DNA of 64,000 nt, from positions 1 through 64,000 of the forward strand of contig JAUWQD010000002.1 in assembly GCA_030611265.1 (NCBI GenBank), in the 5' to 3' direction. Source of the DNA: Methanosarcinaceae archaeon (GTDB taxonomy: Archaea > Halobacteriota > Methanosarcinia > Methanosarcinales > Methanosarcinaceae). Shown here piece after piece: positions 10,946 to 61,830 of this stretch. Below the pieces are notes generated by a model, which made no database searches, was not told where the DNA came from, and saw only the letters and a list, made by a program, of their open reading frames with translations. Each line of letters opens with the position of its first letter. The first letter of the stretch is position 1. A program made the translations under genes and the position numbers.

Positions 10946-11695
10946 TTACCTCCATTCTTTTGTCATTTTAGTTTCGATATACTGGAAAAACCGCTCAAAG
11001 ACCAGGCACATTACCGAAAGCACCATCAAACAAACGATGATAATATCCACCCTCAGCAGACTCTCCGAGCGTATCAGAAGTGCACCAATGCCTGTCGGGA
11101 TTGCGACCATCTCAGCAGCTATCACAACCCGCCATGCCATACCTGCCTCAAGCCGGAGCCCTGTAAAGATGTTCGGTACGGCAAGCGGCAGGATAACACT
11201 GGTCAGTATCTTTCGATCTGATGCACCAAGGGTTCTTGCTGCTTTGATGACATCGCTATCAACACTCCTGATGCCTGTGATCGTGTTATATAACACCGGA
11301 AAGAATGAACACAGAAATATCAATATGATCGGCAGCATCTCATTGATCCCTATCCAGATCATTAACAGCGGTGCCCAGCCAAGCGTTGGTATTGGATAGA
11401 GCAAACTAAAGATCGGGTTAAACGACCTGTTTATGATATCCTTACATCCCATTACGGTTCCCATCATAATACCCGCCACAGAACCCAGCAGAAATCCTGC
11501 CAGCACCCTGAACAGGCTGCTTGCAAGATTATTCAGGAGGACCCCATTAACTGTCAGATGGTAGAACTCCCCCATCACAGCAGAGAACGACGGGAATATA
11601 TATTCGGGAACAATATGCAGCCTGGCGATGCTCTCCCATATCAGGATAAATATAATGATCGGGATAGATCCATCCAGTATATTTCGAATTCTCAT
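10946..11695 (-). CDS. NitT/TauT-type ABC importer, permease subunit
   Basis: A 249-residue inner-membrane permease with about six helices and the BPD-type ATPase-contact motif EAA around VIKAARTLGASDRKILTSVILPLAVP. This is typical of the nitrate/sulfonate/taurine importer group (SsuC/TauC/NrtB). Its ATG overlaps the stop of the binding-protein gene by 4 bases, and it abuts the ATPase gene directly. Substrate is not set by sequence. Confidence 0.9.
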   Translation of the reverse strand: MRIRNILDGSIPIIIFILIWESIARLHIVPEYIFPSFSAVMGEFYHLTVNGVLLNNLASSLFRVLAGFLLGSVAGIMMGTVMGCKDIINRSFNPIFSLLYPIPTLGWAPLLMIWIGINEMLPIILIFLCSFFPVLYNTITGIRSVDSDVIKAARTLGASDRKILTSVILPLAVPNIFTGLRLEAGMAWRVVIAAEMVAIPTGIGALLIRSESLLRVDIIIVCLMVLSVMCLVFERFFQYIETKMTKEWR

Positions 11696-31922: not shown

Positions 31923-33182
31923 CTAACCATATTCCAAAAGCCATTTCCACAGTGGAATATACACGATCTGCTTATCGTCCACTATCACACTTAAATCCCG
32001 ATCTTTTGTCACAACATAGCCTGTATCAACATCGAATTTGTCAAGGAATTTCATCAACCCTTTGATGTCTTTTTTTCGGATATTGTCTCGATATTTGCAC
32101 TCGATCGGCATGATGACGTCATTCTTTACCAAAACACAATCCACTTCTGACGTGCCTTTTCTCCAGAAAAACTGCGCCTGGGATGAGTTGATAACAAGAT
32201 TTTCAACGATCCTGCCAAAGTCGGGATATTCGGCAAGGTGGAATAGCAGTGTTGAATTTGAGAGATATAGCCGCTTCATCTTCTTCTCAGTTGTGAGACG
32301 GTTCTTTGAGTAATTGTAGCATTTCTGTATCAGAAAACCTCTTTCCAGATAGGAGATATATTTTGTTATGGTCTTTCTGTTTATGCCAAGATCGCTTGCA
32401 AGGGTTGCATAATCGGTTACAATGCCCGGATTGGATGCTACAATCTTGACCAATTGCTTGAGTAGATCTTCATATTCGATCGGGAATACTTTTGGCAGGT
32501 CTTCGTATATCATTTTGCTGAATATGGATTCCAGATACATGTCAATAAAGGACTCATCTGCTGTGACAAGTTCGGGAAGCTGCCTTTTGATGTAAAGGAG
32601 CATCTGTTCTTTGAGATTTTCCTTGAACATGTCAGGTTTTTTTACCAAGTCGTTTTCACCTTTCAACCTGAGAAATTCGGTAAAACTCAGCACAGGAAGG
32701 TGGTAGAGGAATATCCTGCCGGCAAGGGATTCTTCTGCTTTTGTTTTCAGGAAAAGTGATGATGAACCGGAAACGAAAAATTTCATTTCGGGGTAGGTGT
32801 CATAATAGTATTTCACCTGATCCTGCCAGCCTTTAAGTTTCTGTATCTCATCGAGAAATACATAAAGTTTGCCGGCACCGATAATATCCGTGCCGATCCG
32901 TGATTGGAATTCATTTATTACTTCTTCAAGAGACGCCACTTTATCGTCAAAGGAAAAATAGAGTATCCTATCCCTTGCGACTCCTTCTTTTATCAGGAGG
33001 TCGATAACCTGCTTTAACATCACAGTCTTACCAGTTCTGCGCAGACCAATGATGCCTATGGTTTGTCTGGCATCAAGATGTTTTATGAGTTCATCGAACA
33101 GGTCTCTTTTTATTTCATACCCGTAGGTGAAATCTTCTCTCCAGTGCAGGTTGTATTTTGCTACGTTTATCATATTATTCAC
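31923..33182 (-). CDS. AAA+ ATPase with DUF4143-type C-terminal domain
   Basis: A 419-residue protein. N-terminal AAA domain (AAA_14): Walker A GLRRTGKTVMLKQV, Walker B KLYVFLDEIQKL, sensor FVSGSSSLFL. After residue about 210 a winged-helix segment (YATLASDLGINRKTITKYISYLERGFLI) leads to a C-terminal DUF4143 nuclease-like domain with AQFFWRKGTSEVDCVLV and IECKYRDNIRKKDIKGLMKFL, in which E and K of IECKYR could form a PD-(D/E)XK site. Start is GTG 33182 or ATG 33173; neither has a clear ribosome site. These proteins are common in archaeal accessory regions; function is unknown. Confidence 0.82.
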   Translation of the reverse strand: MNNMINVAKYNLHWREDFTYGYEIKRDLFDELIKHLDARQTIGIIGLRRTGKTVMLKQVIDLLIKEGVARDRILYFSFDDKVASLEEVINEFQSRIGTDIIGAGKLYVFLDEIQKLKGWQDQVKYYYDTYPEMKFFVSGSSSLFLKTKAEESLAGRIFLYHLPVLSFTEFLRLKGENDLVKKPDMFKENLKEQMLLYIKRQLPELVTADESFIDMYLESIFSKMIYEDLPKVFPIEYEDLLKQLVKIVASNPGIVTDYATLASDLGINRKTITKYISYLERGFLIQKCYNYSKNRLTTEKKMKRLYLSNSTLLFHLAEYPDFGRIVENLVINSSQAQFFWRKGTSEVDCVLVKNDVIMPIECKYRDNIRKKDIKGLMKFLDKFDVDTGYVVTKDRDLSVIVDDKQIVYIPLWKWLLEYG

Positions 33183-33281
33183 TTATATGGGTAGTTGCGT
33201 GGCTATATTATTTAATAATATGGGTATTGGAGTGGTCGTATTATTCGATAATATGGGTATTGGCGTGGTCATATTGTTCAA
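33183..33281. repeat. Tandem 33-base repeat, three units
   Basis: Three consecutive units of about 33 bases, of the form AATATGGGTATTGGNGTGGTC plus an AT-rich tail, cover the region immediately upstream of the leftward ATPase gene. Units 2 and 3 are nearly identical and unit 1 more diverged. There is no spacer, so it is not a CRISPR array. It may act on the ATPase promoter. Confidence 0.75.
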
Positions 33282-43197: not shown

Positions 43198-44122
43198 TTG
43201 ACAGATATTGATGATTTCAACAAAATTAAGGAACAAATATTAAGAAAAGCAAAACTGGATTGTCAGTACTATCGTGATAGTTATCTTCAGCGTCGTATTT
43301 CATCAAGAATGCGTCATGTGGATGTAAATGATTATGCACAATATTTAGATTATCTTGCCAAACATCCGGAAGAATTCAAACAATTGATGGATGCACTTAC
43401 AATAAATGTCACCAATTTTTTCAGGGATCCCGATATATTTGGATTTATCGAGAGAAATGTATTGCCCGACATAGAGGCTGTCTAACAATTGCTGTGGACG
43501 ATAAAATAAAACCTTATTTATTGATTTAAAGCCATATTTGTCCTTCTTTTATCTGTGATTTTGGATTGTTGGACAGCCCCCATACTTGAAAAAGCACAAA
43601 AGAATAACCGTGCAGTAAAAATATGGAGCGCAGGGTGTTCAAGTGGTGCAGAACCTTATACACTTGCAATAATCGTACTTGATACAATGCAAAAACGTGG
43701 ACATGAACAAAACGTTACTGTTACTATATTTGCATCAGACATTGATGATAAAAGTCTTAAAACAGCTATGAAGGAAGAATATTCTGATGAACAGGTAAAA
43801 GGTATCAGTTCTGCCAGGCTTAAAAAATACTTTGATCGAATTGATGGAGGCTACCGGGCAAAAGATAGTATTAAGATTGATCCAATTTAAAAAACGAGAC
43901 CTCATCAAAGGAATAGGTTTCAGCCCGGTAGATCTGATACTATGTCGGAATGTTGTAATATATTTCTCAGTCGAACTTAAAGAGCGTCTTTACAATCAGT
44001 TCCACATGAATCTTTCTCAAGATGGATATCTCGTACTTGGTAAATCCGAATTTTTAACAGGCGATCCCGGCAAATTGTTCACGTCTGTTGACAACTCTGC
44101 CCGCATATACAAAAAGGTGTGA
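43198..44122 (+). pseudogene. cheR: cheR methyltransferase broken by insertion and frameshift
   Basis: CheR methylates glutamates of chemotaxis receptors using SAM. Three pieces are visible: the N-terminal domain (43198-43473, with MDALTINVTNFFRDPDIF), the SAM-binding part (43582-about 43880, with IWSAGCSSGAEPYTLAI), and the C-terminal part (about 43880-44122, with DLILCRNVVIYF and GYLVLGKSEFL). A small mobile element separates pieces 1 and 2; removing it with one copy of its target repeat joins VLPDI to LEKAQKN in frame. A frameshift near 43880 separates pieces 2 and 3. No other chemotaxis genes lie in the window, so loss of function is plausible. Confidence 0.85.
43474..43580. mobile_element. 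107-base MITE-like insertion in cheR
   Basis: The ends are inverted repeats: GAGGCTGTCTAACAAT on the left and, on the right, ATTGTTGGACAGCCCC. A 4-base direct repeat CATA flanks it (43470-43473 and 43581-43584). It encodes nothing. The end sequence resembles those of IS5/IS1182-type elements, which suggests mobilisation by a transposase elsewhere. Confidence 0.85.
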
Positions 44123-49633: not shown

Positions 49634-49700
49634 CACACAATGTTAGAGGAAACCTTTTTTGATAAATAATTAATTTTGTAATTATTGCTAAAATATTTGA

Positions 49701-49758
49701 CATATTTAAGCATATTTACTATACAACATATTTAAGCATATTTACTATACAACATATT
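49701..49758. repeat. 26-base tandem repeat
   Basis: Two exact copies of a 26-base unit (starting CATATTTAAG and ending ACTATACAA) stand head to tail, followed by the first six bases of a third. AT-rich, intergenic. Confidence 0.85.
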
Positions 49759-50137
49759 ATCTTATATATTTTCTGATAATTTTAACTCTATTAGAACAAA
49801 TCAGGAAGTAAGGCAATTGATAAGAAAGTTTCTACAACATCCGTTAGTTAAATCTGATGTGAAAAGACCTGAGATCCTTCGGATTTTGTTGCACTTATTG
49901 AGGACGAGTTTAATGACGTGCCCGATGCGGATATTGGTATATGGCTGTCTAACTTTATTGGCACAGATGCTAGAATGACGCCATAGGGTTCCAAGGCCGA
50001 ATCCATACAAACCTTTAAATGATATCAAGTGCGTAATCTGGCAAGTTTCATTATCGGGATGAAATCCCGTAGGAATGTGGCTTTTAAGATCTAAAGGCTG
50101 AACCGTGAAACTAAAATGAAACAAAAGGTGAAACAAA

Positions 50138-57867: not shown

Positions 57868-57894
57868 GATTACGTCTCTTTTTTGTGCTTGCAT

Positions 57895-58015
57895 ATAATT
57901 TATAGAATTATATACTCCGAGTGAATCCGACCGTAAAAATGGATTTTCTCGGAGTATATATTTAATTATATAGTACGAGTAAATCCGACCATAAGGGAGG
58001 ATTTTCTCGGTCCTT
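57895..58015 (+). repeat. Hairpin element, tandem copies C and D
   Basis: Two family members in the Pcc1-prefoldin spacer. Copy C (57911-57958) has a perfect 11 bp outer stem TATACTCCGAG/CTCGGAGTATA, 2x2 loop, inner stem AATCC/GGATT and 12-base loop GACCGTAAAAAT. Copy D (57976-58009) has CGAG/CTCG, AATCC/GGATT and GACCATAAGGGA. Against copy A the inner stem changes from AATTC/GAATT to AATCC/GGATT on both sides, that is, with base-pairing kept. Each copy follows a TATA-like run. Confidence 0.75.
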
Positions 58016-61395: not shown

Positions 61396-61830
61396 TCTAA
61401 TGCTTTACTCGCCTGGTCTTCTGGAATTTTAACTTCATAAATCTCCACAACCTTTAATTTGACATCAAACTCTTCCATAAAGTACACACTTGCGCCATCC
61501 ACACCAGAATTTATCCAATCTTTATAGTTATCATCATCCCACCAACGGCTATAATAATCCCTATACTCCTGATCCGCCACCGCAAAGATATCCAGAAGTA
61601 AGTAACCTCCTCCGGCGGCGTCTCATGGGATGGTTCCGTACATGCCGATCAGTTCTGGAGACATTATTCATTTGGCAATGTCAAGGACAGGAAATTCAGT
61701 GAGAATAAGCACAAACTATAATCGGCCTTGTGAGGAAATTCTCCCTCCGGTCGAATTAAAACTCGCACTATATATTTATAAGATACATACTATGACAAAA
61801 TTATTAAATCTGTAATCCTTGTCACTACCA
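61396..61830. other. Gap with a minus-strand gene scrap and hairpin copy E
   Basis: On the minus strand, from ATG 61580, a frame reads ADQEYRDYYSRWWDDDNYKDWI, then SVYFMEEFDVKLKVVEIYEV, before running antisense into the ACT gene. This recalls the opening of the mature part of archaeal secreted zinc metalloproteases, so it may be a truncated relic; confidence is low. Copy E of the hairpin element lies at 61732-61766, also pointing leftward, with its TATA-like run at about 61766-61782. Confidence 0.4.
61732..61785 (-). repeat. Hairpin element, copy E (inverted)
   Basis: Read on the minus strand: TATA-like TTATAAATATATAG, then GCGAG, a four-base left bulge, inner stem AATTC/GAATT and the same 11-base loop GACCGGAGGGA as copy A, then CTC. 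It is the closest relative of copy A, 61.5 kb away, including the TATA-like flank. Confidence 0.75.

Follow-up and report, generated by a model that had tools for sequence, protein, structure and literature searches.

The 64,000-nucleotide stretch of a Methanosarcinaceae genome analysed here (the window) holds a cheR gene whose two parts are separated by a short segment with inverted ends, which raises the question of what this segment is and which enzyme could have placed it there. The initial annotation described it as a 107-base element with 16-base imperfect inverted ends and a CATA target duplication, and this proved right to the base: the element is 107 bp long, CATA stands on either side, and the window coordinates are exact (Table 1). 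Its two terminal inverted repeats, 16 bp each, differ at two positions: the variable position 10 (T/C), and position 2 of the right end, which has G in place of A. Stop codons occur in all six frames of the element, and there is no transposase gene in it. With a size below the limit of approximately 500 bp, inverted ends, multiple copies, target duplications, and a clean gain relative to an empty site, the 107-bp stretch is a MITE, that is, a non-autonomous DNA transposon.

Table 1. The interrupted cheR gene and the element within it, in window coordinates.
Feature	Position	Strand	Supporting observation
MITE without a gene, IS1182-type ends	43474..43580	+	8 full-length copies in G000 and empty site in G001
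Left terminal inverted repeat, GAGGCTGTCTAACAAT	43474..43489	+	
Right terminal inverted repeat, GGGGCTGTCCAACAAT, 14/16 versus the left one	43565..43580	-	
Target duplication CATA, left copy	43470..43473	.	Single CATA at the G001 empty site
Target duplication CATA, right copy	43581..43584	.	Single CATA at the G001 empty site
5' part of cheR (TTG start, CheR_N domain)	43198..43473	+	
3' part of cheR (CheR domain), containing the frame change	43585..44122	+	
Second cheR lesion, two bases short of the G001 orthologue	43876..43877	+	

When the source genome (G000; 2.86 Mb in 108 contigs) was searched with the element, nine matches were obtained, namely the element itself, seven other full-length copies, and one 34-bp remnant. 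The seven further copies are 87–100% identical to the one in cheR (E = 5e-34 or better). Seven of the eight full-length copies are 98–100% alike, the remaining one being 87–88% like the others; two copies, on contigs C35 and C29, do not differ from the cheR one anywhere in its first 105 bases. Related ends, for which a search of the genome had been suggested, were found at 29 places at up to two mismatches, compared with none for the reversed control pattern. Perfect 4-bp duplications flank seven of the eight copies (CATA, TATA, TATT, TATA, TTAA, TTTA, and TATT), and the eighth stands between TATA and TAAA; across several genomes and records, the duplication is perfect in 22 of the 25 copies examined. 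Beyond the source genome, matches to the MITE are limited to a minority of the related genomes (8 of 60, its own included). G005 carries eight full-length copies, seven of which are mutually identical, and three partial ones, and it also accounts for eight of the 11 stretches in the contig collection that match the two-ended pattern. C63 retains one isolated end as a remnant (L009), beside which no transposase was recognised by eye, and a like-flanked end is present in G001 (L054). For most of the 20 copies checked, no long frame runs across the empty site. Besides cheR, the only copy in the source genome with a long frame and sizeable parts on both sides is that on C43 (395 aa), and the copy on C2 stands a short way upstream of a frame that, by eye, resembles a restriction-modification methylase.

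The supposition that the element is driven by a transposase encoded elsewhere is supported, as far as sequence comparison goes, by an IS1182-family IS with matching ends in the same genome, and the transposase acting on the MITE is very probably that of this IS. Contig C108 contains an intact 508-aa transposase frame that scores 433.6 bits against the NCBIfam IS1182 model (cut-off, 270 bits), the only one in the genome above this cut-off, with the Pfam domains DDE_Tnp_1_6, DDE_Tnp_1, and DUF772. About five near-identical copies of the IS are present, broken at contig ends: the left part ends four contigs (C95, C96, C58, and C61), and the right end is found at five places (C108, C6, C8, C10, and C98), at four of which only approximately 110–120 IS bases precede the end of the contig, a pattern that about five collapsed copies would be expected to give. 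Added together, the pieces (191 bases left of C108 plus 1632) put the length of the IS at approximately 1.82 kb. Its left end on C95, GAGGCTGTCCAACAAT, agrees with the MITE end at 16 of 16 positions, with one- or two-base variants on C96, C58, and C61, and its right end on C108, GAGGCCGTCCATTAAT, agrees at 13 of 16; both ends of the MITE are closer to the left end of the IS than to its right end. The assembly breaks inside the IS, and no complete copy with both flanks is readable in the source genome, only one-sided flanks. These are TATA on C58, C61, C8, C10, and C98, which fits a 4-bp TATA duplication, and TATG on C95, CATA on C96, and TCAA and TCAG on C108 and C6. Complete IS1182 elements with like ends and 4-bp duplications are found in related genera (L099, 1687 bp, TTTA; L100, 1734 bp, TAAA). 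The genus itself has two complete elements, L105 and L107, whose ends are CAGGCTGTCCCAAAA; in the register applied, neither is flanked by a perfect 4-bp duplication.

The IS and the MITE also have a target position in common, which lies in a palindromic repeat of approximately 61 bp. This repeat is abundant in all seven genomes of the genus (G000–G006), with at least 20–49 matches in each, and more weakly in three genomes of another family (G044, G052, and G056), and it folds far better than shuffled sequences. A unit consists of two hairpins, and units often stand in tandem; in the window, they occupy 143–196, 57883–57999 (two units), and 61741–61799. In G005, seven of the eight full-length MITEs lie in such a unit, always at TATA, at positions 13–16 of the profile (E about 2e-14 or better in a set of 35 short sequences), and the eighth gives a weak match to the repeat (E = 0.002). 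Outside G005, one of the two G002 copies and the single G003 copy are also repeat-borne. For the IS, unit position 13 is where a right end on C6 of G005 and a left end on C61 of G000 begin. Two of the seven G005 copies have the same orientation as the unit and five the opposite one, and because the orientation is mixed and the sequence beyond 70 bp is unrelated, these copies are separate insertions. In the G005 stretches examined, each kb contains approximately seven TATA, so that the repeat accounts for few of the TATA sites overall; this is a rough argument for a preference, the repeat having been counted non-exhaustively. Evidence against such a preference comes from the source genome, in which none of the eight MITEs and only one of the nine near-identical IS ends are in the repeat, although a related end fragment on C18 adjoins repeat units.

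What these positions mean for target choice can be put forward only tentatively, at somewhat less than even odds. In this genus, the IS1182 transposase and the MITE may prefer a fixed TATA in the ~61-bp repeat as a harmless landing pad, the hairpin being kept and 4 bp duplicated, and in the source lineage the MITE may have left this pad to hit ordinary TA-rich tetranucleotides, breaking genes such as cheR. The G005 pattern could also come from the survival of harmless insertions. As a separate observation, comparison with C108 shows one repeat unit cleanly inserted in a decayed IS1182 copy on contig C30 of the source genome (L035, about 71980–72050); the repeat may therefore be mobile itself, or have been so formerly.

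The reading that we prefer for the locus, with a probability of roughly 0.85, is that an IS1182-type MITE inserted at a CATA tetranucleotide of cheR and was mobilised in trans by the IS1182 DDE transposase of the same genome. The insertion duplicated CATA and broke cheR through three in-frame stops, and the DDE transposase of the ~1.8-kb IS1182-family element, with its about five near-identical copies, is most likely the enzyme acting on the MITE in trans. We infer that this transposase would recognise the MITE ends and move the element, either by cut-and-paste or by copying. Points against this reading are that the source genome yields no whole IS with its two flanks, that each MITE end is more like the left IS end than the right one, and that insertions in the repeat are scarce there. 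Given that the MITE and the IS1182 element have only their 16-bp ends in common, no similarity outside them having been seen when the interiors were compared by eye, the MITE might be real and yet owe its movement to a transposase from another family (e.g., IS5, IS4, or IS1634 type), its likeness to IS1182 ends being due to chance; Table 4 of PMC3852290 lists MITEs from several further families for Methanosarcina, and their duplications vary in length. We consider this unlikely, however, as the perfect agreement of the left end (16/16) and the 4-bp TA-rich duplication both point to IS1182, the IS1182 element and the MITE are found at the same TATA position of the palindromic repeat, and the end-pattern matches with an adjoining transposase frame, exact or near, all led to the IS1182 element.

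Much less probable still is that the copies spread with larger segments, or with the palindromic repeat containing them, rather than by transposition. Most G005 copies do lie inside a dispersed repeat that might have served as a carrier, but this explanation was rejected, there being no unique flanks common to the copies: flank similarity beyond 70 bp is absent among the eight G005 copies and among the eight G000 copies, the MITE can face either way with respect to the repeat, and two empty sites each record one clean gain accompanied by a 4-bp duplication. The first of these is the orthologous cheR locus of G001, a member of the same genus. Its sequence there is ...TTGCCTGACATACTTAAAAAAGC...; the locus has a single CATA, lacks the element, and is thus the natural empty site that the initial annotation had suggested looking for; the order of the locus is kept, with a transporter gene upstream and a PAS-type kinase gene downstream. 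In the second filled/empty pair, the copy in L090 stands between two TAGA, whereas G001:C1 has one TAGA and no element, the two sequences being 97.6–99.6% identical on the two sides of the element. L090 is the record JAUWOE010000201, filed under 'Candidatus Prometheoarchaeum'. Since it shares long pieces with G001:C1 at 95.6–99.6% identity, this contig was probably mis-binned and belongs to the Methanosarcinaceae genus rather than to the Asgard genus Prometheoarchaeum.

The idea that the stretch is a normal part of cheR, either an insertion domain or an intergenic gene boundary, and not mobile, has a negligible probability, as nothing speaks for it except its frame-neutral length (111 bp with one CATA), and it is refuted by the uninterrupted site in G001, with the three in-frame stops and the seven other full-length copies at unrelated places equally against it. 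The same length bears on the earlier statement that exact removal of the element restores the frame. Removal together with one CATA does yield ...VLPDI-LEKAQKN... in a single frame, but because 107 + 4 = 111 bp, or 37 codons, the insertion never shifted the frame; disruption by frameshift is ruled out, and it is the stops at 43483, 43507, and 43522 that break cheR. Read through, the product scores 173 bits against Pfam CheR and 54 bits against CheR_N. A further frameshift had been placed near 43880 and taken as a sign that the gene kept decaying after the insertion. The frame change is real, with a shortfall of two bases against G001, whereas its later timing goes beyond the evidence; no long homopolymer is present at that position in the window, and an assembly error may lie behind the lesion, given the metagenome source.

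The cheR of G001 is also a pseudogene, with other lesions: the start region is missing, approximately 80 bases are gone further on, and a stop lies near the end. Among the seven genomes of the genus, a recognisable cheR is found in G000 and G001 only. The CheR family model matches in 20 of 36 relatives (own included), and nearly all of those outside the genus have one uninterrupted frame. Thus, cheR is being lost in the genus, and this loss is ongoing through several routes. Little is learned about chemotaxis from the insertion, as cheR is already absent or broken in the genus.

The cheR MITE is not new in kind, since IS1182 MITEs with 4-bp duplications have been published for Methanosarcina acetivorans. 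Table 4 of PMC3852290 lists MITEs of ISMac2, a member of the IS1182 family, one of the two having 4-bp duplications. Like the cheR MITE, these are multicopy, methanosarcinal, and bounded by inverted ends, and only their ends resemble the autonomous partner; by the description in that table, they are 160 and 169 bp long with 25–26-bp ends, in contrast to 107 bp and 16-bp ends here. The cheR MITE is therefore a further case of an already published kind, well documented and of an ordinary event type, and the common landing site of the IS and the MITE is its only somewhat unusual part. A limited search found no literature on ANME that treats MITE and transposable element together. The locus documents a small transposition completely, in a methane-cycling archaeon that is uncultured: the element is multicopy and has a 4-bp duplication, two empty sites, and a credible transposase. 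It can therefore serve as a marker of recent IS1182 activity and in strain typing.

With a landing site that the IS and the MITE share in a genus-wide palindromic repeat, the choice of targets by the IS1182 family can be tested on a concrete case. IS1272 of staphylococci, which belongs to the same transposase family as the C108 partner and also uses hairpin-forming targets, is described as replacing the hairpin and leaving no duplication (PMC5678879). In contrast, the MITE keeps the flanks of the repeat unit on both sides and duplicates 4 bp, and hairpin replacement of the IS1272 type is accordingly ruled out. IS elements targeting REP sequences reportedly come from bacteria and belong to other IS families, whereas archaea, IS1182 together with its MITE, and one fixed TATA of the unit are involved here. 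Such targeting of bacterial REP sequences is known (PMC1525189), and its likeness to the G005 MITE lies in the insertion into dispersed extragenic palindromic repeats.

Several other elements and repeats were noticed. Two MITE-like elements in the source genome, one of 107 bp with GAGGCTGTCCACCAAT ends and an AATG duplication (L026; C20, 36404–36510) and one of approximately 100 bp with CAGGCTGTCCGACAATT-like ends (L034; C9, about 11380–11481), have ends related to those of the cheR MITE and different interiors. An Rfam scan of the 64,000-nucleotide window returned only two tRNAs and a Euryarchaeota eL15 ribosomal leader. The two stretches 49700–49758 and 50055–50109 comprise a perfect 26-bp tandem repeat and, approximately 300 bases downstream of it, this leader match. 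A 33-bp tandem repeat at 33170–33281 (3.4 copies, 78% matches) has a short AT-rich palindrome in each unit.
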